Below, one piece after another: positions 26,801 through 50,700 of a stretch of DNA of 64,000 nucleotides. Each line of letters starts with the position of its first letter. Within the stretch, counting starts at the first letter, position 1. The DNA lies in assembly GCF_030867145.1 (NCBI RefSeq), contig NC_134440.1, positions 9,734,001 to 9,798,000 on the forward strand. Reading direction: 5' to 3'. The notes below the pieces were generated by a model. The model did no database searches. It saw only the letters and a list, made by a program, of their open reading frames with translations, and was not told the DNA's origin. A program made the translations under genes and the position numbers. The DNA is from Opisthocomus hoazin. Lineage: Eukaryota; Chordata; Aves; Opisthocomiformes; Opisthocomidae.

Positions 26801-29800
26801 TCCCGACGCTCGCCTGCGCGGCAGCCAGGGCAGTCAGCCTCCGAGTGCTCAGCCTGCCCTCACCCGGGCCCTCCCGGGCTGCACCCACCCGCGCCAGGCT
26901 GGACGCCGCAGGGGATGGCCGCCAGGTCCACAGCCTCCATCCAGCAGGTCCCAGAGAGCCCCTCCGAGCCCCAGCGCACGCGGCAGACCCTACGCCCTGC
27001 TTTACCCACCGCTCGCACTCCCCCCGGCCCCCACACCAGGCTCTGCCCTCCCGCCTACCTGGTCCTCCTTTCCCAGAGGCCTCCAGTTTGCGGAGCTTGG
27101 CTATCTCATCCTCCGTGATGATGGTCATGTCCCTCCAGAAGTCCACGTTCTTCCCTTGCTCCAGCTCCATGTAAACCTGCAGCAGGAGACAAGCAGGACC
27201 TCGGGCACCTGCCCCGCACCGCACGCAGGGGTGCAGAGCTGAGGGGGGAGGAGGCCGGCCCTGAGCTGCTGCCCCTCGGCCAGCCCCGGCGCAGGCGGGG
27301 CGGAGCCGGCACCTGAATGTCCTCCACCAGATCCTCCATGTCGGAGACGGTCAGGCCGTTCAGGAAGGTGTAGGGCTCGTGCATCTCCACGGCCAGGTCG
27401 TCGTCCTCCGCGCTGATGTACTTGGCCAGCAGGTCAATGGGTTTCGCCCTCCCATCCCGGATCCGGATCTTAGACCTGGGCGAGGGGAGCGGGATCTCGA
27501 GCGGTGCCTGCCACCCCCTGCTCCGCAGCGGGCCCGTCCCCGCGGAGCCGCACACCTACCGCAGCTTGGCCTGCTGCAGGTGGAAGTTGTCCTCCTGCTC
27601 CTCCCAGGTTTTGAAGTGCTCTGCCTCCTTCTCCCGCTGCAGCATCTCCAGCTCCTGCTCCCGCATTGCCTTCTCCCGCTCCCGCTCCAGGCGCAGCTGC
27701 TTCACCTGCCCGGGGCGGAGGGAGACGTGAGGCTGCTGCAGAGGGGGCACCCAGGCAGGACAGCCGCTCGAGGACGCAGCCGCGACCCCGCTCACTGAGC
27801 TGCCGCGGCTCCTGCGGTCGGCCCGAGGCTCGCGGGGAGCCAGGAGCCACGCGGAAGCACAGCCAGCGCGGGTCAGGGGGGCCAGGGCGCTCGCTGCCAG
27901 CCCTCTGGAGGACAGGGACACAGGCACAACCGAGCGCCTCGCTGCCGTCACCTGGCACTTGGCCTCCTCAGCATCTCCCGAGCTGGACTCGGCCCCAAGA
28001 GAAAAGTCCTCTCACCCGGGGATAGCACAAGGCCGTACGCCGTGGGCCCCTCGAGCCTACAGCCTGCGGGCACCCCTGGAGAGAACAAAGGGACTTTCAG
28101 GTGAGTGACTGGGAGAACTGGGCTGCTCACAGGGTTCCCTGCCAGTCGGTGGGAGGGAGAGGACATCGAATCACAGAACGGTTTGGGTTGGATGGGACCT
28201 TAAAGATCATCCCATTCCAACCCCCCTGCCATGGGCAGGGCCCCCTTCCACCAGCCCAGGGTGCTCCCAGCCCCGTCCAACCTGGCCTTGAGCACTGCCA
28301 GGGAGGGGGCAGCCACAGCTCCTCTTGGCAGCCTGGGCCAGGGCCTCACCACCCTCACCGGAAAGAATTCCTTCCTTCCATCTCATCTACATCTCCCCTC
28401 TTCCAGTCTAAAGCCCTCACCCCTTGTCCTGTCCCCCCAGGCCCTTGCACAAAGCCCCTCCCCAGCTCTCTTGCAGCCCCTCCAGGCCCTGGCAGCTGCT
28501 CTAAGCTCTCCCCACAGCCTTCTCTTCCCCAGGCTGAGCAGCCCCAGCTCTCCCAGCCTCTCCTCCCAGCAGAGGGGTTCCAGCCCTCGCATCATTGCTG
28601 GGGCCTCCTCTGGCCCCGCTCCAGCAGCTCCAGCTCTGTCCTGTGCTGAGGGCTCCAGAGCTGGCTGCAGGACTGCTCCAGGTGGCTCTGATCCACCCTC
28701 ATCTGATCCTACCTTCTGCAGCTCCAGGCGATTGTCCTCCTGGATTCGCTTGTTCCTCTCCTTCAGGTCCTTCTCGTCCAGGTGGCTGATCCCTTTCTTT
28801 TCCAGTGCCTGAAACAGAGAGGCCAAGGGAAGCTGTGATACCCAGTGACCTCTACAGCCCCTCACCGCCCAGCAAATGCCACCACGTCCACCCGCTTCCG
28901 CTGCTCCATGGAGCTCTGATCCCGTCGGAAGTCCCCAGATCCCTCAAACGCTATCCCTGAAGAACGGCAGTGAAACCCAGGCTCAGCCCATGCTGCCCAG
29001 CACTCTGCCTGCAGCTCCCAGCAGGTCTGGGGCCCTCTCCTGCACCCTGCCCCACCTGCTCACCCCACGCCCACGGCTACAGACCATGGTCGTCAGGAGG
29101 AGAGCAACAAAATCCACTGAGCTTGTCAGAAACACCCAGCTGCCGCCCTAGACGAGTGCTTTGCTCTCACATGGCTGCTTTTAGCATCAAAGAGGTTCCC
29201 ACCTCGCCAAAGGACCCCCTCGCCGCCCCACTGCTCCTCCGCCCTGTTCCGCAGGGGCACGATCCCCTCCGAGCAGCCTCGCGGGCACGGGGCAGAGCTC
29301 ACCTTGCTCCAGATGAAGGTGCCCAGCAGGTTGTTGTCCCCAAACGGGTTGTCGGTGTTGGTGTAACCCATGTACTCCTCTCCCCACCCCATCTTCTCCC
29401 GCTTCTTCCTCTCCTTGGCCTCCTTCTTGGCCAGCCGGCGAGCCCGTTTCTCCTCGGGCGTCTCCAGGGCTTTCATGAGCGCAGCCTGCTTCTTCTTCTC
29501 CTCCTTCAGCCTCAAGCGCTCCTGGAGGCTCAGCTGCTGCCTCGTCTCCTCCCTGTCCCGCGAGCGCGGCGGGGACGGAGAGCTGATGGAGGACACGGAA
29601 GACTTGGAGCCATCTCTCTTCCTCCGCCGCTCCCTGCTCCGCGCTCTCCTCTTGTCTCGCTCGCGCTCCGAGCTCGAGCCGGAGGAGCGGCCCCGGGACC
29701 GCGAGCGGTGTTTCTTCTGGCTCTCACGGTGCTGGTCCCTGCTTTTGCTTTTCTTCTTCCATTTCCGCTTCTCATCGCCAGAGTCCGAGCTGGGGGGGGG

Positions 29801-30672
29801 GCAGAAAGTCGCGTTTCAGCCGGGAGACGGTCACCGGCTCCGTGCCGGGCAGCCGGAGCCTCCAGCGGAGCCGGGAAGGCTGAGGCTCTGCCCCTGCCCC
29901 CCCCCGAACGGCTCCTCGTCCTCCCCGGAACGCCCCGGGCCTCCCCCGGGCCCCGAGGCGCAGCGGCAGCGGCCTCTCCCCGGGCTCCCCCGGCGCCTTC
30001 CCCTCAGCCGGGGAGAGGGGCCCGGTGTTTTGGTTTCGGCTGCCGCCGGCAACAAAAGCGCCACGCGGCCGCCCCTCCCCCCGCCGAAAACAGGCAGAAA
30101 ACCGGTGGCTCGGGATAAGGGCAGTTTAACAGAACAGCAAACCGAGGGAACAGGAACAACAACGACACAGACAAGGAGAAAACACGACAAAAAACAGACC
30201 CGCTCTCTCGGACCGCACCGGCGCCGCACGCTCCCGAGCCGCGAGTGAGTTCCGGCCGCGTGCCCCCCCCAGCGGAACCCAGCGTGACGTCAGAGGGTAT
30301 GGAATGGTGTGGAACACCGGAATACCGGGCTCTGTTTGGCCAGGTGGGGTCAGCCCCCACCCCCCCGGCTGTGCCCCTTCCTGGAGGCCGGTGAAAATTA
30401 ACCCTGTCCTGGCCAAACCCAGGACACCCGGCCACACCGGGGTCGCTCTCCCCGCGGGCCCCGGCACCCCGCGGCCCGGCTCCCCGCTCCACCGGCGCCG
30501 CTGCCCCCTCAGACGAGGCCCGGCCGCTCCAGGGCCCGGTCCCCGCTAACCCCGAGCTCGGCTCCCGGCGGCGCTCCACGCTCCGGCTGCGCCGCCGCCT
30601 CTCCCGGACCCGCTCCCGCCGCGGCGAACGGGCCCCTCGGCGCCGGGCCGGGCTGCGCGACCTCGACCCCAT
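23842..30672 (-). CDS. CACTIN: CACTIN, spliceosome-associated protein, complete (one apparent frameshift)
   Basis: Conserved nuclear protein of the spliceosome; human CACTIN also damps NF-kappa-B/Toll signalling. Ten coding exons: 30551-30672, 29303-29789, 28713-28808, 27560-27705, 27313-27475, 27059-27176, 26621-26813, 26181-26303, 24790-25058, 23842-24333. Every junction is GT-AG and in phase. The N-terminus is Arg/Ser-rich ([13 protein letters not shown]); then follow the charged coiled-coil part ([40 protein letters not shown]), the cactin mid domain ([18 protein letters not shown]) and the C-terminal domain, nearly identical to human ([20 protein letters not shown], ending [10 protein letters not shown]). 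Near 24275 one extra base breaks the frame between EGMG and [11 protein letters not shown]. Without it the product is 735 residues (human 758). Confidence 0.95.
25160..26112 (+). mobile_element. CR1 LINE in CACTIN intron 8
   Basis: A 5'-truncated CR1, antisense to CACTIN. It starts inside the reverse transcriptase: [12 protein letters not shown] (the catalytic FADD motif), then [10 protein letters not shown] and [11 protein letters not shown], as in CR1 ORF2. It runs through the 3' UTR (TGGACTAAATCAGC, CCCTCCCAACCCAAAC) to a worn end near CTCCATGATGG. The frame is broken by stops, for instance after the HKPRVD stretch, so it is dead. Confidence 0.93.
28166..28692 (-). mobile_element. CR1 LINE 3' half in CACTIN intron 3
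   Basis: Reverse-oriented CR1: the tail faces left at AATCACAGAACGGTTTGGG and continues with CTTAAAGATCATCCCATTCC. It belongs to the same subfamily as the element at 25160-26112, sharing TTTAGACTGGAAGAGGGGAG and AAGGAATTCTTTCC in complement. It ends about 20 bases short of the exon 3 donor. No reverse transcriptase core remains. Confidence 0.93.
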
Positions 30673-30985
30673 CGCCTCCGGTGGGGCCCCGGGGGCCTTC
30701 CGCAGCGCCCGGCGCGCAGGGCTGCCCGCGCCACTGCCTGAGCGCGGCGCCGCCGGACACCAGGCCGCTCAGCGGGGCCGGGCGCAGGCGGCGCTGGGGC
30801 AGCTCCGCGCCGAGGCCCCGGCGGGGGGGCGGTGCCTGTCTGGGAGGGTGGTGCCTGGCGGGGGGGCGGAGCCTGGCTGCCCCGCCCCCTCCCCTCCCGT
30901 CCCCGCCCCTCCCGTCCCTTTTTGCTCCCTTTTTCCCCCCAAAACGGGCGCGGGAGAGAGGAGGCAGAGGCGGCCGGCGTGAGCA
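30673..30985. promoter_or_regulatory. CACTIN promoter region
   Basis: A CpG-dense stretch without TATA, between the CACTIN start codon and the likely 3' end of the PIP5K1C tail transcript. GGGGCGG/CCCCGCCCC GC boxes cluster at 30885-30910. Assigned by position. Confidence 0.5.
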
Positions 30986-33900
30986 CAGCACAGACCACAG
31001 AACGCTTTATCACAGAGCCGAGGACGGGCAGCAGCAGGGTACAGCTCTCCGCAGTGCGAAGGGGCTCCCGGCGCCGGAGGGGACAGAAACCTCGACACGA
31101 CCCCGGCAAGGAACACAAAAGCGCCCGAGACTGAACCCCCCCGAAAGAGGAACCCGGGGCCCCCCGGGCCGGCCCCGCCGCTCGCAGACACGCGCGACGC
31201 GGTGCGCACCGAGCGGACAGCCAGACAGCGCCGACGCCGACAGAAGGGGAACGCGGACGCGGCTCCGCACGCCTGCGCCGCAGCTTCGGCCTCGTCCTTC
31301 GCGGAGAGAGCTGGAGCACGATGGCAGCTGGGAATGAAACACGGGGAGCCTGAGCATGGCGGGAGCCTGGAGATGGAGCCCACGCCACCGCCCCGGGGCG
31401 AGCCCCGCGCCAAGGCCTACAAGTGCTCCGGCTTCGCTAAAATCATCCCAAAGCGGGATTTCAGCGCGCACGGCCGAGCCGCTCAGCACGGAGCCAACAG
31501 CAGGCTGAAGTGGGTTCCCTGCGTGGGCATTCGGGGCTCTGCGCCAGCTCCTCGCTTTGCCCCACGCCTCTGCTCTGCGCACGCCCGCGAAGGGCAAAGC
31601 GTGACGGCAAGCGCGGCGATGCCAGCTCTCTCTTGCCTAATCCATACTGGGCAGGCAGCAGCGACCCGCGGTTCGGCAGCAGCCCGAGCCGAAAGCTCCC
31701 CGGCAGCCTCAGCCGTTGGCAAGGGTCCGGGCGCGTCCCGCAGAGCTGAGGGTCCCGGCTGGGATGATGGGGGGGAGGGAGAGCGGCGGCAAACAGGGCT
31801 GTGTGGGAACTGGCTGCCTCGCAGGGCTGCTCGGCTCGCGCCTCAGAGCACGGGGAACGCAGTGCCTGCTCTAAGGGTGGAGAGAGCGGGGTTACGCCAG
31901 GGCCAGCACCTGCCAGAGAACTGCTGGGGCACAGAAAGCCTGGACAGACAATGCACAGCAGCTCGCGTCCCGGAGGAGCCGAAGCATAGCTGGAGAGACA
32001 GAGCAAGGGCGGGTGGGGGATCTCTTCCCCAAAAAAGGGCCGATGCTCTTCCCCGTCCTGCCCTCCTCTGACTCCGTGTCCCGCAAAGGCGGCATCGGCA
32101 GCGCCTGGGGGATGCTCGGGAGCGCCCGCTGCTCTCCTGCTGCAGCGCTGTGCGCAGAGGCGGGCGAAGAGCAAGCGGGGAGCTGCCAGCTCCTGCCAGG
32201 CTTCCCGGGGAGCAGAGGCTGGGCCGCTCTCCAGCACCCAGCTAGCCCGGGTGCAGGTGACACAGCGGGGAGCGGGTGCGGGCCAGGAACGGGGCAGTTT
32301 CCGTTTCAGATCAGCATCTCCCTAAAAGGTTCCTCCTGTTCCCTCACGCCGACAAAGGTGCTCTGAGGCCTTTGCACGTCCTCGCAGAGGACCAGCCCTC
32401 CCTGTCCAGACCTGCTCCCTCCACAAGGTTCGGCGTTACGCAACTGCACGAGGATTGTCTCAAAAAGCCCCAACACCTGAGGAGACAATGCTTGGAAGGA
32501 ACAGGCTGCAGGTCTGGGTTCCCCCACATCTCTTGGGACCGCGCGCAGCTCCAGCTTGCGAAGTTCATTCCATGCTGGTGGGGCTCAGGTGCTCCCCGCA
32601 CAGAAACTGAGCAGCTTCAGAGACCCCCAAACTGAGGGGAAGGAATAAAGTCTCCACCAACGATGCTTAAACCATCTCAAAGAAGATTTCAGCTGCCTGG
32701 AGAGTCCCGGCGAGGCTGAACCCACCAGCCCACGACCGAGGTGGCACCGGGGGCCTCGGGCCAGGCACCCCGAGCCCAGCGCCCCGGGTTCCTCCCGCGC
32801 AGCACCCAAAGCAGCCTCTGCCGAGGCAGAAGGGATGCAGCTCCCTGGGGCCTCTCTGCGCACGGTATCGCGCTTCTGGAAGGAGAAACCCAAAGGCTGA
32901 ACGTTCAGCGTTTTGAAGGCTCTTGCTTCCAGCCCCGAGGCCGCTGGCCTGGCGGTACGGCGCTCCTCCCGTCTCCCCGCCCCGAGCTGCGGAGCCCCGC
33001 AGCAGGCAGACGGGGTGGGCGAGGGGCCGCTGCCCAGCCCGCTGTGGGGGCTGCCGCGGAGCTGCCAAGCAGCAACTGAAAGGGGAGAGTTTCTTGAAAG
33101 CCTTTTGGTGGATCACTGGGTAAACAGCCGAATACACCTGATGGCAGCAGCCTGCAAGAGCCCCAGCCCGCGCTCCCGAGAGCGGCACCTTACAGCCTCC
33201 GGCACCTGCAGGCAAGGGGGGGGAAGTCTGGGTCCTGTACTTCTAGGCAGGAAAACCTCAATTTGTGAAGATCCTCACCCAGTTCAGCGCTCGGCAGAGG
33301 GGAAGAGCTTCCCCCCAGCCCAGTTACATTCTGGGACCTGAATTAACCCACCCCGAGTGCTGCTGTGCAGACAGATTAGGGGGACTGAGCCCCGAGAGAA
33401 GCGTCCTGCTTCCCCACTCCTCTACCAGGAATGCCAAGGACAGGCCGAAGATTGTAATGAGAATTAAGAGATTTTCACCCTCTTTAAGTGAGGCTCATAA
33501 AGCAGAGCAGTAAGACCCGGCTCCCCCTGTCTAACGAGTTTCCTTCCTTCTCTCTGGGAGATGAGGACGGGATTGCTAGAGTTCCAGACAATGCCATGGT
33601 GTGTGTCCTGCCGACAGACGGATGAGCCTAGACTGAACGCTACCCAGCAACACCATTCCTCTCGCCTAAAGCCGGCAGCCTTCGAAAACCAAACCATCGC
33701 AGACACCCGAAGCAGCCATTTCCAATAGCAGATGTTACCCCGGGCAACATCCCGGTCACCCAGCTTTTTGTCCAACGGAGTCCGTGAACACAACGCTGCC
33801 TGGCGCAGCGAGGTGGCAGAGCCAGGCTGCTGCTTCTGTCTCCAGCGTGTGCGGCCGTGCACGCGCCTCCCTGACCGCCCCGAGGCACGGAGGGAACGCG

Positions 33901-35119
33901 CGAACCCAGTGCTCGTGACCCCCGAGTACCGGGCGGTCGGATACACCCGTGAGCGTGCGAGGTGCTGAGTGGCTCCAGTACGACGCAGTGTCCGGAGAAG
34001 CCTGGCCGGAGGCTGGGCAGACCGGGGAACTCGCACGGCAGCACGGCCGGTCCCCAGGGGTGCACAGTTCCCGTCTGTCCGTGCCTGGGTGTCCGGAGCA
34101 GGCGGCGGTGCGGCAGCCGGTCAGACGAAGCGTGGACTCCAAGCACAGAGGGACAGGGTGACGCAGCAGTGCAGCACATGGTGAAGGCAGAACCCATCGT
34201 GACGTCCGGAGGAGAGCCGAGGTGACCACGTCACTGTCGCCAGGAATCGTTTGCTTCCCCCGCACAGCGTTACAGATCAAAAGAAGTCACTAGCGATTTC
34301 TGAATCCAAGTAAATTGGCATGGCTACTTTGGACTACTGTAACATGGGAAAAATTCTCTTCAGTGGCCTTTAATACATTGCATTTACATAGCACCTTTCA
34401 TCCCAGGGTTTAAGTGCTTTAACGGAAGTGGGTACCGCACACCCATTAGCACGGGGGAAACCGAGGCACAGAGTGGTTAAGTGACTTGCCTTAGGTCACT
34501 TGGCAAAACCGTGGCAGAGTCTGGACAGCCTTAAACCTCCTGACTCCATCAGCTGGTTAGCCCACGCTGCTGCCTCGGACGAAGCCACTCCGGTCCCTGC
34601 CCTCCCCAGCAACGTGCTCCTACCAATTCTCCCGTGAGGGCTCACACTCCTTTCTGATGCACAAATATATGACAACAACAACAACAACAAAAAGTGCAGT
34701 AAACTAAATGTTTAAAAAAGCACACGTGTGCTGTCTCTGTGCAAAGATAAAAGAAATAAATACATGATTAAAAAATTAAAAAGGTTCACAGTATCACACA
34801 TGGATAGGTAGCTACGGTAGTGCACGTCTGGAAAACACTGTGTTACTACCCAGGATTCTCTACACCCAGCTGGATGTCTCCGCTGGGAGCTGCGGGTGAG
34901 CGGGTGGTTTCTTTGCTGCCCATGTCTGGGATAAGGAGAAAGACACGGTTATAGTTTTGCTCCGTCCCGAAATGCAGTGCCCAGGATCCCGCAGTGCGGC
35001 AACACTGGTGCCAGCAAGCTCTTCCCCATCCCACTGGAACGGCTGCATCAACGGAAAGGGAACACATCGACCTGCAGAGGGAATCGCTGCTCTCTGGGGC
35101 TTCTGTGTCTGCATAGAGA
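30985..35119 (-). other. Likely 3' UTR of the PIP5K1C tail transcript
   Basis: About 4 kb of non-coding sequence downstream of the stop codon at 35120-35122, up to the CACTIN promoter. I recognise no exon in it. It holds an ancient MIR-like SINE (34370-34585), a CAA microsatellite (34671-34690) and AT-rich sequence at 34700-34800. A GATAAA variant signal lies near 31004-31009 on the minus strand; a clear AATAAA was not found, so the true 3' end is uncertain. Confidence 0.45.
34370..34585 (+). mobile_element. Ancient MIR-type SINE (amniote MIR-like)
   Basis: Matches the shared core and 3' part of MIR/CORE-SINEs: CATTTACATAGCACCTTTCA, AAGTGCTTTAA, then AAACCGAGGCACAGAGTGG, TTAAGTGACTTGCC, AGGTCACTTGGC and GTGGCAGAGTCTGG. 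In mammals these words form the standard MIR signature. In a bird they point to the old amniote family, so the copy is probably hundreds of millions of years old. Confidence 0.75.
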
Positions 35120-38100
35120 TTACTGCAAGAGGCAGAGAAGAGAGAGTCAGCACCCGGCGCCCGCCCTGCGCTCCGAGAGGCCGGCGCCCAGCCAGCTGCC
35201 CAGAACCACACGGAGCGTGACGAGAGCAGGCTGGTTGTTTCGCATCCTCCAGCAATGACACACGACTGGAGAACTTCAGCTCCCCCGAGCTCTCACTGCA
35301 CCACGCGGTTTGGAACGAGCCACAGCCCTTGCTGAGCAGACCCAGGAGATGCTGATCCGAGCCGCGGCAGGGCTCTGCCACAGCCATGCAAGAGCCCCGT
35401 GCTGCGCAGAGGCCACAGCGGCTCCCTCTGCAAGCTCCGACCTCGACCCACCGGGCACCCGGCACACGTTGCTTGTACACTTACTGTATCGCTCTCCTCA
35501 TCGGAGACAGAGTGGAGCTGAGCGCTATAGTGGAGCGGGGAGTAAACCCAACTCCTCTCGTCTGTCGGCTGCCAGAGTGGCCAGAGATGGCGGGGAGAAT
35601 GCAAGGAGAGCAGCAGCAGAGCAGGGAGCAAAGGAGAGAAGAGGAAAAAATAAAAGCAGAAAATAAAAAGAGCAGGAAACAATACAGTAAGAACAGCTGT
35701 CGTCCTGGAGGGAGAGAACTGAGCTCAGTGCCGGCTCTCGGCAGAGGAGCCTTCCTCATCATCCTCGGCACATACCTGCTCCCTACCAGCTGGGACACGG
35801 GACAGCCTGCCAGCAGCCGCCATGGGACCCTGCTCCAGCTGCAGTGGGGACGGCACAACCTCTCCTCTTGCAGGGACAGATTTTTAGAGCTTTTGAGGTG
35901 CCGGGGAAACCTCAGCTCCCTGCCACAGCGTCACCCCGGCTCCAGAGAAGCAGAGAGACGTGGGAAGTGCCTTACCTAAGGGCAGTGACAGAGCTCTGGG
36001 TTCCTGCTGCCCGCGCCCCGCTCTCACCCGCCCGTCTCCCCAGCCCCGTGCCTGCTGCAGGCTGGCAGCTCTGGTGTCCGGGAGGGCTCTCACAGCGAAA
36101 CCTGACCTGGTTTGCTGTGCCTTCCCCCTTCCCTGCAGGCCAGGCAGGCAGCAGATGGGTGGGTTCGACCATGGTGGATGGCAGCCACAGAAAGGAAACC
36201 GTTACTGGTGAGAGGCTTGGAGACAGCGGGGTGATGGGCACAAGTACAACAAAGGAGGCAAAACACAACTGGATCTTGGAAAGAGCGAGGGGGAAGGGGA
36301 CATGCGTCGAGGGAGCTGGTTATCACAGCGCTGGGCATCGGCGTGACAAAACTGCTGCTGCCGACACGGCAGAGGAGCCGAGGCAGACTGGAGGGCTGGT
36401 GTCTGCTTCCAGCCTTCCCGGGGGGGACCCCACGCCCGCTGCTAACGGTCTCTCTTGGCTCCAGAGCCGCTCCCAGAAACCGCCCCCTTTGACTCAGCCT
36501 GGGGTTTGCAAAGGAAGAGGAATGGAACGGGGTTCTTGGAAGAAGCCGGGGGGGTTCCCAGCCCGGGAACCAAGTGCAGCGGTCTGCGACGTCCAGGAAA
36601 CTACAAGCAGCCAGAGGAGCTTTGAAGCACTGGGCTCCGCATGCTGAACCCCACCAGTAATGGCAGCGACGTTAGCAGAGACTGCTGGGAAGAAGGGGGG
36701 AAGAGAAACCCTTGCCGGGAGCTTCTCACAGGGCTCTGCTAGAGGTGCAGGAAAGCCCAACGCTGCCTGAAGCCTGCCCCACAGCCTGTTTTTCATCCAT
36801 CCTGACCGAACCGCATGCTCCAGCCGCCTCTTTCAGAGCCTCTCAGCCCAGAAGCACGCAGGGAGCTGCAAACCCAGCGGGGAGATCAAGGAGCATCCGG
36901 CGCTTGGCATTAACCCTCCCGGTGCTGGGGCAGGAGGAGCTGCACAGAGGGGCTGCCCGGCTGCCCGCAGCACTTCCCTCACGCTGTCAGCCAAGGCCCG
37001 GAGCACGCCACGGCCCCTGCTTCCCCAGGCACCCTGCCCCATGCCCACCCCACTGCTCCCCTGCCCAGCACCAGAGAGGCAGGCGCTGGGAGGACCACGC
37101 TCCACAACGGCTCGTGCCGAGGTTCTGGCAGTGCTGCCACAACCCTCTGAGGACACCAGCTCTCCCAAAGCCTGAGAAGGGAAATACTAAAACCCAGAGC
37201 AGTCTGAGCTCTGGATTCAGCCCCTAATGCTCAGCTGCCTCCCTCCATCTTTCGGAAAGGAAAGCCCTCCTCGCTCACAGAAAACCTGCAGTGAGGAGGG
37301 AGCACGTCGGCAGTGGTGAAAAGGGCTGGAGAGCAGAAACCATCCCTAACTCAGCAGCAGCTCCTAACTCCTTTGGCTTTATGAGCTGCTCACTATCCCA
37401 GCCACAGGCCTGAAAGGTTATAGTCGCAACGGGATTTTTAGCAGCTTCAAAACATCTTAATGGTCTCTTTGGAAGCCTGTCTTGCTTCCTGGGCCAACGG
37501 AGCCGAGCCTAACATTACCTACAGAGGCTCAGGTGCCTTTCTGGCCAGGTCTGGTGCTTGCAAGTTTGTCCAAGGGCCGGGTGACGCTGCAGCCCATCCC
37601 GTGGCAGCAGCTGTGTCACCAGCCTGCAGAAAAGCAGGGCAGAGCCTGTGCTTCTGCAAGATCCTACAGGGAGATCCACTCGCGTGATTTCGATCTGCTT
37701 CCCTGGCTTCTGGTGGGCTGATTCCTAATGGCCACACAAGACAGAGCCACAGCATCCAAGGGTAACGGAGGGCTGGCCCCAGTGTTTCAAAGCTGCAGCT
37801 CTGCTCCCCTATGTGCTAGCGTGTTCACTTACAATCCCAGAGGAAAGCGAGGTGGTTCGGAGTCTGCGCTGGCGGGGAGAGTAAATCCAGTACCTCCCAT
37901 CTGTGAACTGGATGCCCCAGGGCAAGTGAAGTGAGAAAGGAAACAGAGGAAAAAAGGATGATGTGAAAGAGAGGATGAAAAACAAAGCAAAAAACGAGGG
38001 GCTGGGCAACTCCAGGCCTGAACGGATCAGCAGGCAGGAAAGCCATGCGTGGGAAGAGCGGCGCCCATGCCCTGCCACCATCTCTGCACTTTTATTCCCC

Positions 38101-39837
38101 CGTGGGTAAGCAGGAGGATAAAGCGCTCTCCTTTCAGGAGCAGACTTCCAAAGATCAGATCACAGTCCCCTGGGACTTGACAAATCCTCCTCTGCACACA
38201 GCATCCCTTCCCCGCCCACCGCCCCGGAGCACTCCTGCTCTCACAGCTGTGGTCCCAGCCCTGCCGCACTCCGGGGCAGCCGCACTCCAGCTCCAGCTCA
38301 AGTGGTTTTCCAAGGACAGCGCCCGTGGGAACCCAAATCAGCTTTTCCCTTCATCCCAGCAGTGCCAAACACTCCACAGCACGACACACGTTTGATGCAA
38401 CACTCAAGGACTCAGATGCAGTATGAAATGCTGATGAGCAGTCAGTCACGCTCTCTGTGAGCACACACCGCACACAGTTGGTTTCCTCCGGACAGAGAGG
38501 TGCCCCTCAAGCTGGGGGCAGTCCGTATGCCCAGGGACAGGGAGGAAGAGGAGCTGACCCTTGACAGAAGACACTTGCCAGTGGAGCAGGCAGTGTCTGC
38601 AGCCGGCTTGCACACAGCTGCCATCCACAGGCAAAGAAAGAGCAGCCAGTGTCAGAGGGAGCTGTTTGCATTCTGAACAGCATGCATAAAAACCCAGACA
38701 GGCAAGCTTGTAAAATGGAGCCGATTCCTTCCCCGGCTCCCACGAGCCTCGGAATGACTCGGCAACAAGTGAGCAGCGCTGCAGCAGAGTCGCACAAGCA
38801 CAGGGAAAGGCAAATGTTGCCATTTTTAGGTTAGCCTGAAGGAGCTCATCACAAGGGCTCAGCTCATCTCCATCGCCATATAACCAACAGCAATGAGTCG
38901 GAGCAGGGAGGAGCTGGGAGCCTCTTCTAATGAGAAGTGCCTGGGCATGGGGGAGATCTCTCACGGGTCAGACCCTCAGCAGTGCTCTGGGAATACACGG
39001 GGCAGGTACGTGTTGCCAGAAACTCTTCTCCGGTCTGCAGAAGCTGCTCAGACATTGCGAGAGCTGACTGAGGAACACAGCGCCAGGCTCCACGGCACTC
39101 TGCTGCCAACCAGCAACCGCCTCACTCCCTGTCTCAGCACTAGATTTCCACTGCATCACCTAACGCGTCTGCCTGCGGGGAAAGGAAAAGCCAGAGTTCA
39201 CCAGAACCCGTGGTCGGCCCCACTGCAACCACCTCCCTTCTGGCTCTAGGCCACTGTGGCACGTGTGTGTTCAGGAAAGCAGCTGGGCTCTCCGCTGAGG
39301 GAGGAAGAGCTTCTCATCTGCACCTACAGTCACCTTGGCTTGTCCCGGAGTGAACACGCTGGCCTAGATAAGACCTTCAGCGCTTGTGCTTGGAAGCAGA
39401 GCAGCACAGCTACGGCTGCCTCCACAGCAGCGGTGCCACCCACCTCAGCCCCACCAGATGCTGCTTGGAGTCCTCCAAGGGTTAATCCAGTTCCCTGCAT
39501 TCAAAAACCCACCCAGCGTTAAGACCTCGAGGTGCTCAACGCGAAGACGGCATGGGGCAGACATTGCCCTGCACCCGACTGCCTGAAATCGGGACTGTCC
39601 CAGCCTCACCCAGCCTCTCCCGTCGCACCCCTAACGGACCGGGCAGAGAAGGTGTCTTACAAAGTATATGTCCATCCTCCCCGGGTCCCTCCGGCCAGCT
39701 GAGCCGGGGGCCCAGCAGCCAGGTTCGCCCCGGGGCCGGGCAGGGACTCCCGGCGGCCGCGACCCCCGCCGCCCCGCGCTGCCCGGAGCCACCCCGGGGC
39801 CAGAAGGGGGCGCCATCAGCAGGCGCTCCGCCGCCAT
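35120..39837 (-). CDS. PIP5K1C: PIP5K1C C-terminal tail exons without the kinase domain
   Basis: PIP5K1C makes PI(4,5)P2; its spliced tail binds talin and AP-2. Here only tail exons occur. Exon 35485-35568 (28 residues, phase 0) encodes PTDERSWVYSPLHYSAQ and ends SDEESDT, the classic talin-binding segment. The next acceptor (35123) is followed at once by TAA (35120-35122). Exon 37833-37907 (25 residues, phase 0) encodes FTDGRYWIYSPRQRRLR, resembling a known alternative mammalian tail. The exon ending at 39661 reads DIYF, the residues that precede both tails in mammals, then GTAAGA. Position next to CACTIN matches human. No kinase exon lies upstream; the frame instead opens at an ATG at 39837 in a CpG island (MAAERLLMAPP...GRMDIYF, 59 residues). 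Splicing to 35568 would give an 87-residue product. This is inference. Confidence 0.7.
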
Positions 39838-39989
39838 CGCGCATGCGCCGCGCTGGCCCCGCCCCCGGCCACTCCCACTCGGCTGGTGCAGGGGGGAAGG
39901 GCGGCACCCGCCACGTGAGCGGGCTCGGGGAGCCCCCACCCGGAAGCGCATGGGAGGAGCCGGCGGCGCGGTCACGTGAGCGAGCAGCA
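39661..39989. promoter_or_regulatory. CpG-rich two-way promoter
   Basis: Contains a perfect NRF1 palindrome GCGCATGCGC (39839-39848) next to a CCGCCAT/ATGGCGG YY1-like start motif (39832-39837, minus). An E-box in GGTCACGTGAG lies at 39970-39980, and another CACGTG at 39913-39918. Minus-strand ATG at 39837 and plus-strand ATG at 39989 both look like first-exon starts with splice donors downstream. Confidence 0.6.
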
Positions 39990-40690
39990 TGGCGGCGGGC
40001 GGTGAGTGCAGGCCCCGCGCCGCAGCCTTCCCCGCTGCCCCCCCGGCCCGGCGGCTTCGGCTGGCGCGGGGGCGCCGGGTGGGCCCCGGGGGTCCGGGTG
40101 GGTCCCGGGGCTCCGCTCACGCCGGCTCCGGACGCTTCCCGTGGGCTGAGGCCCTGCCGCGGGGTGCGGCTGTGCTCGGCCCACGGCTCTGGGCGTCCCG
40201 TTCTCCCCCGCGGTGCGGGCCCCGGCCCCCCCTGACACCCAGCAGCACCCTGCCAGACCGGAGGCAGGAGCCACCCCCCCCCCTCACCCCCCGTCCCCTC
40301 CCCGCTCCACGCTGGAGAGGCCGTGGCCATGGTGCAGACCCTGGGGAAGGGGCAGGGTGGTCTCCCCCTGCACCCAGCGAGGGTCCCACCCGTACAGCGG
40401 CAGCGGCCCCTCCGTCTCCAGGGTGCTTGGCGGGACCCAGGGTGGGTGCTGCCCCAGCTCCATGCCCAGCGCTGCCGTAGCTCCCCTGCAACACCCAGTG
40501 CCGGAACGGGCACCTAGCAACTGCCCCTCGGCCGGAGGAGCCCGCGGGGGGCTCGATCCCTCCCTGCCCCGAGAGGGACCTGGGGCAGGGCGGGGGGAGC
40601 TGGGGCTGCGCCTCTCCCCCTCCCCCCAGCAGCAAAGTGACCAGGAGCAGGGTGGGGGGGGGCAATAAACCACGGGCTGGGGCAGGGGCT
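39989..40690 (+). other. Short unidentified transcription unit
   Basis: ATGGCGGCGGGCG followed by a strong GTGAGT donor (40002) looks like a first coding exon, MAAG. About 660 bases downstream a canonical AATAAA (40664-40669) is followed by a GC-rich end. Between them I see several possible acceptors but no protein I recognise; the reading frames are Pro/Ala/Arg-rich. It converges on FZR1, whose own 3' signal lies about 100 bases further. It could be a small gene with a diverged product or a non-coding RNA. Confidence 0.4.
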
Positions 40691-40754
40691 GCAGGACCCC
40701 GGGGGCTCGCTGCCCCCCTACCCCACCCCAGAAGAGCAAAGCAGGGCCCACGAG

Positions 40755-42783
40755 CCACCAATTCACAACTTGTTTAATGCCAGGTCAGTTGCTTTACACG
40801 GAGAAGGGTCAACGCGCTGTTTTTCCCCCCACCCTACGATGCCGCCCAGGGAACGATGGTGCGAGGCCGCAGCCCCCCGGCTCGGCGGGGAGCCCCGCTC
40901 AGCCCAGCACTGCCCGATCGCACCCTGCAAACACGAGCTCGCTGCCGCTCCGCTCCTTCCCCTGTCTCGCACGCCGCCGCACACGGCCGCCAGCCGGCGC
41001 AGCCCCCCGCTCACCGGGGACGCCGGAGACCCCAGAGAGCGCTCCCGGGACCCCCAGCTCGGCCTCGGCACTGCCCTTCCAACCCCCACTATTCTGTGAT
41101 TCTGTGACGCAGCGAGTGACACGCGAGGGGCTGGGGAGCCACCAGGGATTTTCAAACCAAGCCCCGCGCTCCCGCAGCAAGGGCTACAGCAAAGTGGGCG
41201 TGTGGGAACCACGTTTCTGAAATTACACTGAAATTAATCCCGTTTTGGAGGCGAGCGAGGCTGCAGGACGCCGCCGCGGCCGCCCCTCGGGGCTCTGGCT
41301 GCACCTCGCCGACCCGCCAACCCCCCTGCGCCCCGGCAGCTCACCCGAAGGGCACCGGCAGTCCCACCACCACCCCGCCAGCCTGGGCTCAGGTAAAAGG
41401 AGGTGGGGGAAAAAAAAGACAGAGCCAGGTATCGCCCACGGACGCTACAGAGAAGAGGTCAAGCTCTATGTACACAGCCCGGAAAACCCACCGGAGCAGG
41501 ACGCAGCGCCGGCGCCGCAGGGCCCAGGGCGGGCAGCAGCCAGGCGCGCGGCGGGGAGAGCACAGGGACAGGGACAGGAAGGGGCTGCTGCACGCGGCGC
41601 AGCTTCTCGTTAAAGTAAAAGCAACACGTACACACAAGCGCTTGGCGTCACGGCCCACGGCACTCCTCACACAGGCTCCGAACACGCCAGCAGGCGCTCT
41701 CTTCCCATATGACTCAAAAAAACCAAAACAACAAACAAAGAAAAATTACAACAGGTCCCTGGCTCTGCCTTGAAGATACAACGAAGCGACGCTCCGTCCT
41801 TGCTCCCGAACCAGACCCCCCGCGGGCTCTCGCCCCATCCAGCCAGGAGAGGCCCCGCTCCCTCCCAAGGCCCGGATCCGCAGGAGCCGCTGGCTTTCTC
41901 GACGCCTCTCGCTGCTCGTCGCCTCGGGAGGACCCCGGAGCGCCCAGCCTGCCGCAGAGGGGGCCCTCGGGGTGGGCTTGCAGCCGGTTGGAAAAGCCAC
42001 TGGTTTTCCCCCTCTGTTAACTAAAAGGATCAGCCCAGAGCACGCAACAGCCACTCCCGACCTCTCTGACCCTGCCCCGCGGAGGCAGAGCCTCCTCAAG
42101 CCTCCTCCAAGCTTACAGCCCCAAAACGCACCCGCGGGCAGCTGCCAGGCGTGCCGCAAACCGAGCTCTCTGACGGGAATGACTGCGTCGCGTACTATAG
42201 TACCTTTTGGGGGGAAAAAAGGAAAAGCACAAAGGAAAATGCGCAGTTCCTCAGCTGCTCCGTGCGGCGGGGACGCCCTGCCCTGTCAAGCAACAAGCAG
42301 AGCCCCGAGCCCAGCCTCCTCGCACCAGCTGTATCCACGGGGCCCAGCTGGCTCCCACCTCCAGAGACGTCCGTCCCAGGGCAGAGCGGCCGCGAGCAGC
42401 GCGTCCGGCCCCGTCCCAGAGGCGAGGACACTCTCCTCTCTCCCAAGAGGGGCAACACCGCAGCGGGGATGGCCTCGGTCCGGTCTCGTGGTCCGGCGTC
42501 CTCTCCAGTACACAGCCCGAGGGCCGGAGGATGCTGGTTTGACGTTTCTCTTGTACCCGTTTCCCTTTCCGAAGGATGAATCCGTAAACCTCTGGCAGTT
42601 CCCTCCCCGTCCCCTCCCAAGCACTGCCCGGCGTGGTTCACAAGCACATATTTAATTAGCATCTGCTGGGTCCGACCTCCGGGCCCTCCCTCCCGGCGGC
42701 TCTTCGGGGTTCCATGCACACCAAGGTAGTGGGCTGATCGCGGCACCGCCGGCGCTGGGCTCCCGGCTCGCCACACGCGGGCT
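40755..42783 (-). other. FZR1 3' UTR
   Basis: Non-coding sequence after the FZR1 stop. A likely end is the minus-strand ATTAAA (+ strand TTTAAT, 40773-40778) followed by CAAGTTGTGAATTGG. An earlier ATTAAA lies near 42649-42654. The UTR carries a CR1 tail (about 41073-41106), which is the edge of the duplicated block. Confidence 0.6.
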
Positions 42784-44715
42784 TTATCGTATCCTGGTGA
42801 AGAGGTTGAGGACGGATACAGACTCCTGCCAGGAAAAGGCAAAGCAGGGGCTGAGCACTCCATAGCTGCGCTGCGGCGTCACGCCACCTGCTTCGGGGTT
42901 TGGTTTTTTAATAAACCAGCCGCCGATCCGGTGAGGTACCTCCAGCTCTGGGCACGACCCGAGCTCACCGTTCAAAGCCCAACACCATCAGTATTCCCAC
43001 GGGCTTTTTCCAGGCGGTAACAAGGAGCACGGCAGGCAAGTGTGCCGTTCCCCCGGCCTCGTGGGGAGCTGTACCCCAGAGCTGCCAGAGACCGGGGACG
43101 CCGGCAGCGAGCAGCACCCGCTCCCCACAGCTCACTCCAGGATCTCCCTGCCACCTCCGCCAGACACCCAGCCCAGCTCTCGGCGCAGCTGGCACCACCC
43201 GCTCTCGATGATGGCGAGCTGTCAGCAGCAGCACCCACGATCCCACTCCCACCCAAGCCCCCATCTGAGGCCGTTTCACAGGGAGCCAGGGGACAACGCT
43301 CTCGGAGCGGGTCAGCTCCCAGCAGCACCCTTGCAGGGAGGAGGGTGGGCGCAGGATGGGCTCCCCGAAACGCTGCTACGCTCAGCAGCCCTCGAACAGC
43401 CAGGAGAAGGCCGTTCCGTCGCACTGCCTTGAGCACACAGGGGCAGGCTTTTCTTTCACCTGATGGCTACAGATCTCTTCGTGTCTCAGCAAAGTACAAC
43501 CCTGCACCGCATCCAGCCCTCGACCCGCAGCGTGTGGTGAAGGGACCAGAGCCAAGGCAGCAGAGCAGCGCAGACTTGGCCCGAACTCGCCCCCGGGCCG
43601 AGCCTGCTGCAGGACACAGCCGCAGCCACCCCCGCACGCACCCTTACCTTCGTCGAGCGAGTTTTACTGAAGACGTTCCAGAAGCGCAAGGTCTCATCTC
43701 CAGCTCCTGTAACGATGGCCTCCCCATCAGGGGACATTGCCTACGGCCAAGAGAGAGCAACCTTTAGCAGCTGTTACATTTTTGAGGTTGAAAACAAACC
43801 TTCACTGGAATACGAGAGAGATTTAACTCTCCTTCCTACCTGGCTAGCGGTGAGAAACCACAGAACTACCTCTGCTTTCCTCTGCCTCGCTCAGTCTCCG
43901 TAGGTGCCAGTTTGAGCACTCGCATCTTACTTACGCAGCCATGGAACACAGGGGTGAAATTCTCATAAAAAGGATTCTGGTGTTCAGAATCCAAGGCAGC
44001 TGTAATTAAGGCTGTTCCTCCCCGGATGATAAACAGGTGTGAGGGCAGGAAGTGTGACACGACTGCATGCGCCAGCTCTGGCAGTCACCTGCACCGGAAT
44101 CCAGCCCACAAAACCGAAGCTGCACATTTATCACCTCTGTCACGACTCCGCCGAAAGCCCCACACACCAGCGACAAAGCAGGCACAGGGTCAGCGTGGAT
44201 TAACTGCACCAAGTACTGTAATGACGAACGAGGAGGACTGAAAGCCTCAAACCCTTCGCCTGCTGGCAGTCGCCAGCGAAAACGTGTACAAGTCTCCAGG
44301 GAAGGAGGAGAGACGCCTGTGCTTCCTCAGCAGAGTTTTGGCAGGCTTTGCTCTTCGCTAAGAAAGCCTCACATTTCCATAGCAGCAAACCAAAGCATCC
44401 CTCGCAGGCAAGGAAACCAGATACAGGCGTTTTCCTTCGCTTGCAGGGCAGCATTCGTAGCTCCAGCCCGGCTGCCGGCGGCTCCGGCGCCACCGGCACT
44501 GCGGCTTCGGCCTCACCCCGCACACGCGCAGCTGACACGCAGCTACAGAAGCCTGCAGAGACACGGCCGTCGCTTACCAGATACAAGACTCGGTACGAGT
44601 GCCCCGTTAGCTTTGCCACTTGAGTTAGCGAGGGGTATTTCCAGACGAGGATCTGGTTCTGCGAGTATCCGTGGGTACTCACCTGGAAGGGGAGAGGAAA
44701 ATTCGCGTCACGCTT
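41073..44715. repeat. Duplicated block, copy A (FZR1 3' end)
   Basis: Matches 60222-64000 base for base with roughly 30-40 substitutions by eye, about 1%. It begins in a CR1 tail and holds the FZR1 3' UTR and the last three coding exons. The match continues past the right end of the window. Relative to copy B it lacks a 137-base segment at 41299/41300. Confidence 0.95.
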
Positions 44716-47700
44716 CCTGACAGCCGACGGCGCAGCGGCCGCACCGCACCGCGAGGAACTCACGAGCTCGTTGGCGTGTTTCGACCAGGCCAGGTTGCAC
44801 ACTTGCGACCCGGTGTCGATGCACTGCAGAGGCTGCCCGGTGAGCGTGTTCCAGAAGCGTATGCAGCGGTCGGCTGTCCCACCGCCGGAGGCGAGCAGTC
44901 CGTGCTGGTGCGGAGACCAGGCGATAGCTTTTACTGCTGCAAGATGCTCTGTGTACTGTTGGACAGGACTCAGGCTGCAGTGATTCCAGACAAGGAGCTG
45001 GCAGAGAGGAGAGACGTGATGGAACCTGCACTGCTGTCGCGTGTCTGCAACACCCACAAGCCACGACGCTGCGCTGGGACGGAGGAGGGCAGGTGGGCAC
45101 CAAAGTGATTTCCCACAGCTCTGCCCCAGCACACGCATCCCCACCCTGCAGCCAGGCCCACCCTGACGCCGCCCCCCACGCCCTGCCCAGAGCCGTTCGG
45201 CTGCGGGGCCACAAGGCAGCGAACGGTCCTCAGGCTGACGGAGCCAAAGACAGAGCGTCACTGAACATGAACTCAAACCCTTCTCTTGCCCCGACAGCTG
45301 CATTACTCCAGAACACGTTTAGAAACGGGCTCGAGTTCCTCAGAAGTTATTCTGAGCAGGAGGAACTCGGCACAGCCACGCTGTCACACGGACACCGGGC
45401 ACATTCACCACCTTGCAGCCTGCTCCCAGGGGCTCCCAGCACTGCTTCTCCACAACAGCTGCTGCTTCCGTACGGCGCTCAGCCAACTCCACGCCTGCGT
45501 TCCAGGTGTCAGAACCTCTATAGCTCTAAACTCCGTTTCCTTCTGCATACATAAACACCACTGCAACAAACCTGACCACAGGCTACCTAAACAAAATCAG
45601 GAAGCACAGCTTAGCAGCAGCTTTGTTGAACTCAAACCCCTGAGTCAAGCTATAGATTTAATTAGCCAAGTGCAGGAGCAAAATTAAATTTGCCTTTTTA
45701 ATTTTATTAGGGAGAGGAGACCGAGTAGAAGCTTCGCATGATTTATGTTTGGACGCAGTCCAACGACCGAAACAAAAGCCCCTTTCGGAGGGCCAAATAT
45801 CCCTAAAGAGAGGGGGTCTGACAATTCTTGGTGAAGACCTAGCGACACTGAGCCCCGTGGACTCCTTGGCAGGACCATACCTTATTATCATTTCCTCCAG
45901 AGGCCAGGAGCTGGTGGTCCGTAGACCACTTGAGCCCGCAGACCTCCTGCCTGTGGCCCTGGAGCCGCCGCTCGGACTGCAGGGGGGGGGTGCGGATGTC
46001 CCGCTGCAGGATCATCCTGTCCCGGCTCCCAGAAGACAGCTGGTCCGCGTTCCACGCCAAGGCACCTGCAACGCGGGCAGAGCGTCAGGGTGTGCTGCGG
46101 GAGGCCTGGGAGCGGGCAGGCAGCACCCAGCCACCACAGCTGCCAAGGATTTAAAAAAATAATTCAAAAAACATCTGTGCTTATGGACCTGCCTTCTATC
46201 CACTGTCTGAAGTCCTAGCACAGCGTGCAAAGACAGATTAGCCTGCACAAGCTTACTGAAGGTATCACTAATCCTATTTCACAGTGCAGTACAGCACAGA
46301 AGGAAAACTCGGAGGGTGCCCTGACTTCCCAAATCTCACTCCAGCGTTCAGATCGCTGCGGAGCAACAAAACCAGTCCCGGCAGAAGAAGGGAACTGGAA
46401 ATCTCAGTGTCAAGCAGCCTGCCGGCAGGGCTGAAACCGGAAGCCAGTGGCAGTGACACAAGATGTTGCAACCAAACCTAAAATGCCTCAGACATGGAGG
46501 AAACACCTGCTGCAACACTCAACCACCACCACACCCGAGATCAGAGCTCCACAATTACTCGACGATAACGCTTTGAAGACGGCTCGAGACATAGCAGGGG
46601 ATAAATCTCAATCCTGGCACCTTCCGAGTTCTGCTATTTCACACAGATCCCTTGCTTCAAGGAAAAAGTTCAGTCATGAAGAAAGGAAACCTGCGAAACC
46701 TCGGCCTCCCGCCTCCTTACCGACTCGGGCTGTGTGCCCCTCGAGCATGGAGAGCTTTTTCCCAGCAGCCGCATCCCAGATCTGTACAAAGCCCTTGTGC
46801 GTGCCCACGGCTACCAAGTTCCCCTGGACAAACAGCAAACCATGGTCAGTAAAGCCAGTAAGTACAGACAGACGTAAACCAAAAGCTAGGAGCTGAGGAG
46901 AAGACTTGAGATAAATCCCACACGATGGAAAGCATCCAGAGTTCTTCCATCTTTTCCCTACCGAGAGGGCCAAGGAGCCTGGCTGGAATATATTTACTGT
47001 AACTTTTTATTGTCAAGAGAAGTGAGCCGGCTCTTTCTCCCTCCCACGGCTCTCAGCAGATGCCTCGAGAACCTCAAGATACAGGAGGCTGCTCTCGGTC
47101 CCCTCTCATTTAGCAGAGGAAAACGGTGCAGACAGGAAGACACATTTGATTTGCGATGCATACAGGGAGTTTGGGGAAATACAGGACAATACCCCAAGTT
47201 CAAAGCTGTGAGGAAGAGCTACACGGCTACGACGGCAGTGTCTAAGCTACGAGGGTGTGAGCTGCCACCACTGCCAGCGTTATACTGACCCGTTCCGACC
47301 AGCCCACGGATGTCACAGAATCTCCTTCCACGGAGAGATCACACAGTCTGGTTACCTTGAAAGCGGGACAGAAGGGAACAAGAAACACTTGTTATTGCCA
47401 CACTACGCTCTCCGCTGTCTCACAGACCAGGACCTAGTTTGGGACAGAGCATTACAAGCGCTGAATCCCTCAGACAGCGCGTTCCATAGCTCTGAAAGAT
47501 GCTATGGCTGGAAAAGAACTACGGCAAGGGCGACTCCACTCTCCAGACACTGACCTGGCTAGTACAAGCGCTCCACAGGTAAACACAAGTCCCAAGGCCA
47601 ACACTGAGGACGTTAAGAGAGGACCAGTCCACCAGGTTCAGGTAGAAGTCGTCCTGCAGCTCTGGGGCATCCAGCACTTTGAAAGGAATCTTTGAGATCT

Positions 47701-50700
47701 TCCGAGTTGGTTTTCGAGGTGATCTTAGCAGCTTCTGACTGTTTACAAAAACAGATGCACAAACCGCTACAGGACCTTACCCCGCTGCCGATGGTGGGTG
47801 CAGATGTAGCCGCTCTTTAAAGCGCACTTGCGTTTCTGTAGGAATGCACAGACAGAGGCCGAAAAATTCCTTCCAGCTGGTACGACTGGAAGGAATTACG
47901 TTCTGCTCCTGTAAAGGAGCTGGGGAGCAAACAGGTAAACCGAGCGCTGACAGCTGACCGAGGCACGTTCAGTATCTGGGCAGGCTGGGCGCCGGCAGAA
48001 GTTCTTAGACCTTGACGGTCCCTGCTCACCATCTCCCCACGTTTCCAACAGCAATTCAGACAGCAATTTTGGGTGCCTTAGCAAGAAGCCCCAGAGAGCC
48101 TCACTGAATCCTCTGCCCCAGCCCGTCCCTTCTCGCAGCCTGTGGAGAATCAGTGATACCTTTTGTTGCTGACAGGAGACAGGGAGTACGGCGAGACCTC
48201 GTTACCATCATCTGGACTGGAGCGCTTTGTGCTCAGTGAATACTGCACGAAGAAAACACACCTGGTAAGAACGCCAGCACGCCCAGACTCCAGAGCATCC
48301 CTCCAACGCGCGCTGGTGCCCAGTGCCTAGCTAACTCCAACACCCACAGTCAGATTTTCCAGACTTTTCAATCGCTCCCTCTCCCAGGTGCTCTGGAACC
48401 ACACAGCAAAACCCTGACCTCCACTCAAGTCCAAAAGCTCGATGTGGTCGCTTATCACTGTCCAGAAAAGCCTGGTTCCAGCTCGGCTTCCCCGCCAGTA
48501 CAGAAACAGGAAGCACGCAGCTTGCTGCAGAGACTTCTGCTCTCTTTACAGGCCACCAAATTTTGTTACCAGCAGCTTATCTTGGTCAAGCCACAACACT
48601 ACCTCCCTTGCACCAGCAGCGTGGCAGAGCCGTGTGCTGTGTTCCTGCGACGCACACGTGCAGCCTCCACTGGTTTTAACGCAACGTAACCGACTCACAG
48701 TGAAGAGAGACTTCTTCTCCGGGTTGGACGGCTGCAGCCTCCTGTCTTCTGTCTGTGGGTCTTGCACCTTCTCGATCCCTGCTCCTAAGAGCTCGTTCTT
48801 CAGCAAGGCAGAGTAAGCAAGGCCATCTGTGAACCCAAACGAGCGCTTAGGCACAGGACTCGGAAGCAGCAGGCAGCTCTGCAGGGAGTGGCAGGACGAC
48901 ATCTGCCTGGCTCGCACGTTCCCAGGGCCTCTTCATAAGCCTGGGGCCCCAGTTTGGAATCAACATGAGCAGCAAGCTTCCCCTCTTTCACCCCACCAGG
49001 AAAGTGCTTCTACGGTACAATAAATCAAGGGATACAAATAGCCTCTCGCTTCCCAGGCCTCGTCAGCAGCCCACTGAGGTGACCCGGTATTCACCCTCGT
49101 GATGGGGGCATTTCCTAACACACCAGCACGAGTTTTTGCATAAGCACGAAGGAAATAAAAGCTCCAGGCGCGGTGCAAGTGGTAGAAAGGAGGTCTCACC
49201 TTTGCCATTGTCCGATGTCGCATCCTTTGCTTTTCTGTTTTGACTTGGTGATTTTTCATTTTCCTGAAAGGGAGACAGGCGCTATCACCACACAGAAACC
49301 TCAGGATATACGGTGAACTAACAAACAAAGAAGTCTCCTAGACCACAGGGGCAATGCGTTCAGAGGAACTCTTCTGGGGCAGCAGAAGACAAGCAGAGCA
49401 ATTACGCAGGCAAAATAATATGCACCATTTCCTTAGCTGCGAGACTGAGCTGCAGGAGCTAAACCTACATTTATTCTGTGGAAGTTGATGCTCCAGTTGG
49501 CCCCAGCTCTTGAGGGAATGAATCTGTCACCGTGCTTACTAGGAGAAGACATCGGAGAATTGGAAGGCGTCAGGGTTCTTCTCATCTCTGCTACCTGAAT
49601 TAAAGAAGAGGAGACACACACAAGAATAAGTGTGGATTACAGCAGGGGTCTGAAAAACATCAGCGAGGCCTTGTCAAAGCTCAATATGCCCAAGTAGAAG
49701 AGCCAAGCATTAGTTTGTCCCCGTCACAGAACCAGTAAGCATGTTAGAGTCCCCCTGTCAGGGGAACTTCTGTCAGAAGCAGCAATTAAACATCCTCTTT
49801 CCCTCCGCTCCTTCTCCAGCTGACGTTGTCGAGGGAAACACGTGGCAGGCTGGAGCGGGGCAGACTGCTTGCAGGGTGAGCAGCAGATGCTGCAACTGCA
49901 GTCACATTCTTTTTCATACAATAATTTATGTCAGAAGGGACGCCAGCTCTGAACAGGGCTAATTTCACAGCTACACTGAAGGCCACAGCGGCACCCAATT
50001 GAGTTTTCAGCGTCTCCGAGGACACCGACCCCACAAGCTCCCTGCTGCAGTGTTTGGACGCCCTCAGTGCGAACACCTTCTCCCAGTACCTAACTGGAAT
50101 TCCCCCTGCTGCAGCTTGTGTCTGTTGCCTCTAATCCTTCCACTGTGTACCTCTGAGGAGAGTCAGACCCTATTTTGTCCATACCACCCACCACGCAGTT
50201 GAAAGCTACCACCTGATCCCTCCTGAGCCTCAGCTTCTCCAGGCTGAGCAACACAGTCTCGGCATCGTCCTGCGCCAGCCCCCTGACCATCCTGGGGGCC
50301 TCCATTGGACTGGCTCTGTCTTGTCAAGCCCCACAGTTGGTCTGTTTGTTTGTTAGCCCCCAGTGTTTGATGTTCCCCATGTACTTACTGAGGTTATTCA
50401 GTAAAGAGGCATCACTGAGCTACATAAAAATATCTTAACTCCTTTTTGCGACGTGAACTGAGTTTATATATTCAAACGCTTCGCTGAAGTCAAGTCGTTG
50501 GGTTATTCCTAGAACAGCTCAGGGGCTCACACCTGCTCACAGCCCAACAAGAGACTACGCTTCGCGTCAGAGAGGTCACACATCTTTCAAAAGCTCAAGT
50601 GAAAACAGTCAGAGGCAAGACAGACAGCCACTGAATAGTCAGACTAAGCCCATTTAGCACAGCCCGTCGTACTTACACCAGGCATTGTGTTTTCATGCTG

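Follow-up and report, generated by a model that had tools for sequence, protein, structure and literature searches.

The 64,000-nucleotide stretch of the Opisthocomus hoazin genome analysed here (C27:9734001-9798000, where C27 is contig NC_134440.1; "the window") carries on its minus strand the 3' exons of PIP5K1C, including the exon that encodes the talin-binding tail. We conclude with considerable confidence that this locus is the scar of a duplicative inversion, that is, an inversion with a one-sided inverted duplication that left a piece of the DOHH promoter in front of a partial PIP5K1C copy. PIP5K1C itself is uninterrupted: an intact gene with its own tail is present elsewhere on this contig, so that the window holds an additional, partial copy of the tail. 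Genome-wide searches covered the 1.48 Gb assembly (415 contigs) and self-comparison covered C27:9654001-9838000; there is no N within 214 kb of C27 sequence. Five-digit positions below refer to the window and seven-digit positions to C27.

The complete PIP5K1C gene occupies C27:9643835-9690812 on the plus strand. Spliced with the human protein as a guide, it has 18 exons encoding 667 residues without a stop, GT/AG at 17 of 17 introns, and a C-terminus formed by the same 28-residue tail that is found in the window. The exon that ends in the residues DIYF is 133 nt long in this native gene (C27:9686135-9686267), and the native tail exon lies at C27:9690364-9690447, 79 kb from the tail in the window. 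A whole-genome search for the PIP5K domain returned 21 matches, and those on C27 fall at 9.673-9.678 Mb on the plus strand; none of the 21 lies inside the window, where the tail copy has no kinase domain in the same transcription unit. A preliminary description of this DNA had regarded the tail as severed from its kinase, a claim that the complete gene contradicts, and had suggested a search of the assembly for the kinase exons. Indeed, these are on the same contig, on the plus strand, and they join the native DIYF exon ending at 9686267, not the DIYF sequence at window position 39661.

The partial copy and the sequence abutting it are arranged as follows, in window coordinates:

21880-39672, minus strand: A', the inverted copy of C27:9686256-9704043, with CACTIN sequence and the PIP5K1C 3' end (a 17.8-kb inverted self-match)
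35120-35122, minus strand: copy of the stop codon that opens the last PIP5K1C exon (an AG acceptor, then TAA)
35485-35568, minus strand: copy of the talin-binding tail exon, 28 residues, PTDERSWVYSPLHYSAQLHSVSDEESDT, followed by a GT donor
37833-37907, minus strand: copy of the alternative tail exon (FTDGRYWIYSP...), FTDGRYWIYSPRQRRLRTTSLSSGI
39661-39672, minus strand: the final 12 bases of the 133-nt native exon, coding for D-I-Y-F, then its donor; the match ends at 9686256/39672
39673-39675, minus strand: ATG at the junction, immediately preceding DIYF (A at -3, G at +4); ACG in native DOHH
39673-39837, minus strand: open frame of 55 codons, antisense to DOHH, starting at the ATG at 39837 and running into DIYF (59 codons with DIYF)
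39670-40240, plus strand: D', a CpG island that duplicates the promoter and exon 1 of DOHH together with part of intron 1 (95% match to C27:9813568-9814145)
40236-41071, minus strand: C', the inverted copy of C27:9724263-9725099, which lies between an FZR1 copy and MFSD12 (98% match; 16 of 836 bases differ)

The exons named in the preliminary description are all present on the minus strand, with the talin-binding exon at 35568-35485, the alternative exon at 37907-37833, a donor at 39661 and a frame from 39837. They belong to A', since C27:9686256-9704043 recurs inverted at 9773672-9755880, that is, at window 39672-21880. The native stretch (A) and A' differ by 110 substitutions in 17,766 aligned bases (0.62%) and by 25 indel events, with 2 to 13 substitutions per kb. 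A third PIP5K1C copy, on another contig of the assembly (C41), covers 42 of these differences, and assigns 19 to the window copy and 22 to the native side, leaving one on neither. The talin-binding exon is identical to the native exon (9690364-9690447), together with 18 bases upstream and 10 downstream, and there is one intron difference 20 bases upstream of the exon; the alternative exon and its flanks are identical over 101 bases, as are the 47 bases that begin 6 before the stop codon. The tail copy has the WVYSPLHY motif and intact splice sites, and the consensus donor at 39661 is kept. The remaining 121 bases of the DIYF exon, and its acceptor, are missing from the window copy. Thus, the earlier statement that no kinase exons precede the DIYF exon holds within the window, but what stands there is 12 bases (39672-39661) of the 133-nt native exon rather than the exon itself.

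CACTIN sequence is also duplicated, at window 21880-39672 and at C27:9690900-9704043. We identified CACTIN in A' by its C-terminal part (C27:9758201-9757845), and the identification applies to that part. Over 280 C-terminal residues the frame is stop-free in both copies, which are the sole two matches among four genomic candidates.

The preliminary description placed a break between 39.67 and 39.84 kb and left open whether it reflected rearrangement or misjoin; we find it at 39672. A whole-genome DNA search with window 39400-41300 gave 186 candidates, of which 40 were scored: the window itself, six other matches of 227-837 bases, and 33 short ones from the repeat tail, each about 34-62 bases long. 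The six longer matches divide the interval into PIP5K1C, DOHH, C and repeat pieces, and the PIP5K1C piece occurs in three genomic places, namely the window, the native gene and the C41 copy. When native gene, native promoter and chimera are compared, GAC at the junction is common to both parents, a microhomology of 3 bp that could arise by chance. The chimera keeps GACATATACTTT and the donor at the junction. The source of the adjoining piece is the promoter of DOHH, as a match to the human DOHH coding sequence begins at C27:9814222, adjoining the parent promoter; read by eye, native DOHH exon 1 ends in a consensus donor and an acceptor precedes the coding start. D and D' differ by 24 substitutions in 569 bases (43 in 599 with flanks). 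DOHH reads on the plus strand and the PIP5K1C tail exons on the minus strand, such that the promoter copy is antisense to the tail. The tail had been credited with a promoter of its own; promoter sequence is indeed present, but it derives from a different gene, DOHH, and faces the other way.

The gene order on C27 is PIP5K1C(+), CACTIN(+), FZR1(+), MFSD12(-), HMG20B(+), TBXA2R(-), CACTIN(-), PIP5K1C tail(-), DOHH-promoter piece, C piece, FZR1(-), FZR1(-), DOHH(+), which confirms the earlier observation that the tail has CACTIN sequence on one side and FZR1 on the other. A and A' stand as inverted copies at both ends of the FZR1-MFSD12-HMG20B-TBXA2R block. Relative to the human order, the block from FZR1 to TBXA2R is flipped, with CACTIN and the tail at both of its ends. 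A plain inversion with no duplication is ruled out, since CACTIN sequence and the tail are found at both block ends. At the left junction, identity with the CACTIN side gives way to identity with the FZR1 side inside a shared repeat of about 170 bp.

The assembly itself shows the copies with their orientations and limits, an intact parent gene and the origin of the promoter piece; the order of events and the repair mechanism we infer. We propose that an inversion between PIP5K1C/CACTIN and DOHH reversed a block containing TBXA2R, HMG20B, MFSD12 and one FZR1, and that a 17.8-kb stretch with CACTIN sequence and the PIP5K1C 3' end was copied during repair, which would leave copies in opposite orientation flanking the flipped block. 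The left junction would have formed in a repeat common to both sides (9703870-9704043). The right end would have stopped inside the penultimate coding exon of PIP5K1C and been joined, via GAC, to a DOHH promoter fragment heading a tandem FZR1 unit, with the parent PIP5K1C left intact.

Inverted duplications at inversion breakpoints in Drosophila subobscura, including duplicates from one breakpoint only, have been attributed to staggered breaks (PMC5080602). The staggered-break inversion O8 of that species resembles the present locus in having inverted gene-bearing copies that flank a flipped block, a one-sided duplicate, and partial genes at a breakpoint (PMC5080602). By contrast, the present case involves a vertebrate chromosome, a 17.8-kb duplicate, one junction in a shared repeat, and tandem FZR1 copies with a DOHH promoter fragment at the other junction. 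Among the papers listed for PIP5K1C duplication in birds, or for FZR1 duplication and inversion in birds, none concerned this locus, as judged by title and the start of the abstract; the exact locus was not searched for further.

Several points weigh against a duplicative inversion as the full account. The divergences are unequal (A/A' 0.62%; FZR1 units 0.44-0.57%; C/C' 1.9%, or 16/836; D/D' 24/569), which a single event does not predict; such an account also needs older tandem duplication, CpG mutation or gene conversion. Indeed, the unevenness suggests either an earlier tandem duplication of FZR1 and the DOHH-promoter piece, or uneven CpG mutation and gene conversion. In addition, the presumed ancestral gene order is that of human, and the junctions are those of the assembly.

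An alternative possibility is that the inverted copy is a haplotype or fold-back artefact of assembly, and that the bird has one PIP5K1C tail on this chromosome. A divergence of 0.6% falls within the range of heterozygosity, and the inverted repeats that flank the flipped block are close to a common long-read length, so that the orientation of the block could be wrong. Nonetheless, the 214 kb of C27 sequence is free of N, a fold-back leaves the DOHH and C pieces unexplained (two further junctions, with other divergences), and the three FZR1 units carry 20, 13 and 19 private substitutions. We therefore consider an assembly error unlikely.

A second possibility, compatible with an origin by duplication, is that promoter capture made a small new gene, in which a spliced RNA is transcribed from the copied DOHH promoter in its antisense direction, and the free PIP5K1C tail that it encodes, of 33 or 87 residues, competes with the full-length protein for talin or AP-2. 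CpG promoters often fire both ways. A transcript running antisense to DOHH would encounter a good 5' splice site just past the 12 bases from PIP5K1C, and might be spliced to the orphan tail exons; the copy matches the native gene exactly at the donor, in the tail exons and where the last exon begins, and the ATG at the junction is in a strong context. The promoter copy retains one NRF1-like GCGCATGCGC and two CACGTG boxes. The 133 bases around DOHH exon 1 (39885-40017), both CACGTG boxes included, are identical in the two promoters, with 27 differences in the rest of the match; a difference-free run that long occurred in 218 of 10,000 random placements of the 27 differences, a rough test given that some differences cluster at one edge of the match. 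Constraint on the promoter may, however, come from the native DOHH copy alone, and the identity of the tail exons gives no handle on selection.

The open frame itself argues less for a gene than it might appear. An 87-residue protein with 59 new residues had been envisaged; there is a 59-codon open frame, but 55 of its codons are foreign and DIYF is native. The frame segment is 82% GC, a composition in which stops are rare. In 2,000 dinucleotide shuffles, the 55 codons leading to the junction lacked a stop in 1,484 cases, and 663 of these also placed an ATG at that distance or further from it. The frame opened by this ATG in the native DOHH promoter diverges past a 1-bp indel. A Pfam search with the 161-residue frame at 39634-40116 gave no match at E 0.01. 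Given that such lengths are common in shuffles, that the parent promoter differs by a 1-bp indel and that Pfam gave no match, the open frame is not evidence of a protein. A conserved small protein is not supported on the same grounds, and the 87-residue product has no support beyond the frame.

If a free tail were made, it could in principle compete. PIPKI-gamma (PIP5K1C) binds talin and competes with beta-integrin tails for it, and a W647F mutant with deficient talin interaction failed to promote focal adhesions (PMC3171478). Searched against the Protein Data Bank (PDB), the 33-residue peptide had a single match (E 0.017), to an integrin beta-3/PIP-kinase peptide chimera containing WVYSPLHYSA (2h7d/2h7e). 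The tail of PIP5K1C is linked to AP-2 as well, and the 2h7d/2h7e chimera is reported to be bound to talin. It has been suggested that new genes can arise when promoters are reused through divergent transcription; in one study bidirectional promoters were present in 20% of de novo genes, above the chance expectation of 5.31% and below the 29.81% of conserved genes (PMC4697840). A captured-promoter gene producing a competing tail seems quite improbable, and a very young gene in which the junction ATG encodes a 33-residue free talin- or AP-2-binding peptide that tunes integrin adhesion or endocytic PIP5K1C would be more improbable still; a functional reading of the locus overall is distinctly unlikely. 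An antisense transcript from the copied DOHH promoter would most likely yield at most a non-functional RNA, and a 33- or 87-residue peptide with the talin/AP-2 motif would be a less likely outcome.

Finally, the reading under which the preliminary description was titled, a split PIP5K1C whose kinase has lost its tail, has next to no probability: the window has no kinase-domain match and its tail adjoins foreign DNA, but the intact parent rules out a severed gene.

The window copy can be compared with two known kinds of gene. Like the PIP5K1C (PIPKI-gamma) splice variants with the 28-residue talin/AP-2 tail, it has tail and alternative exons identical to native; unlike them, it lacks the kinase domain and upstream exons, and of the penultimate coding exon it retains no more than 12 bases. 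Chimeric or truncated genes that arise when a partial segmental duplication captures a promoter likewise have 3' exons behind another gene's promoter, but here the promoter is antisense, the parent is intact and no transcript is known. The locus is an ordinary kind of partial duplication with promoter capture. It offers a base-level record of how flipping and copying a piece of chromosome can set one gene's tail behind another's promoter while the parent survives, and, should the tail be made, it could serve as a cheap test case for a natural dominant-negative. It also carries a warning for annotation, in that this assembly has two copies of CACTIN sequence and three of FZR1, and a solitary PIP5K1C tail might be miscalled as a broken or lost gene.

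Beyond the C piece, the rest of the window is occupied by FZR1 units:

41073-60255, minus strand: FZR1 unit 1, whose far end holds repeats and an open frame of DDE-transposase type
60222-64000, minus strand: first part of FZR1 unit 2, holding the gene's 3' end; the unit continues to about C27:9813504

FZR1 occurs in three units, one on the plus strand and two on the minus strand (window 41073-64000 and C27:9703870-9813504), which are 0.44-0.57% apart, with six differences in the 11 coding blocks compared; the private substitutions given above are those in the stretch compared. We had considered that FZR1 might be nested in a PIP5K1C intron, and dropped this idea when the native DIYF exon was found elsewhere. 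A 420-residue open frame with a DDE_Tnp_4 domain, HARBI1-like, lies at window 57360-58619 on the plus strand, and the DNA around it recurs in all three FZR1 units. Reverse-transcriptase-like frames, CR1-like in type, lie at 56036-57535 (minus strand) and 59020-59355 (plus strand); their RVT_1 scores, 27 and 16.8 bits, are below the Pfam cut-off of 29.6.

The third PIP5K1C copy, at C41:63090718-63117756, has blocks 96.3-97.5% identical. It is probably a pseudogene, since it starts in exon 4, with no match to exons 1-3 in the 50 kb examined, and has a 1-base deletion in exon 12. DMRT1, which is Z-linked in birds, is present on the same contig, so C41 is probably the Z chromosome.

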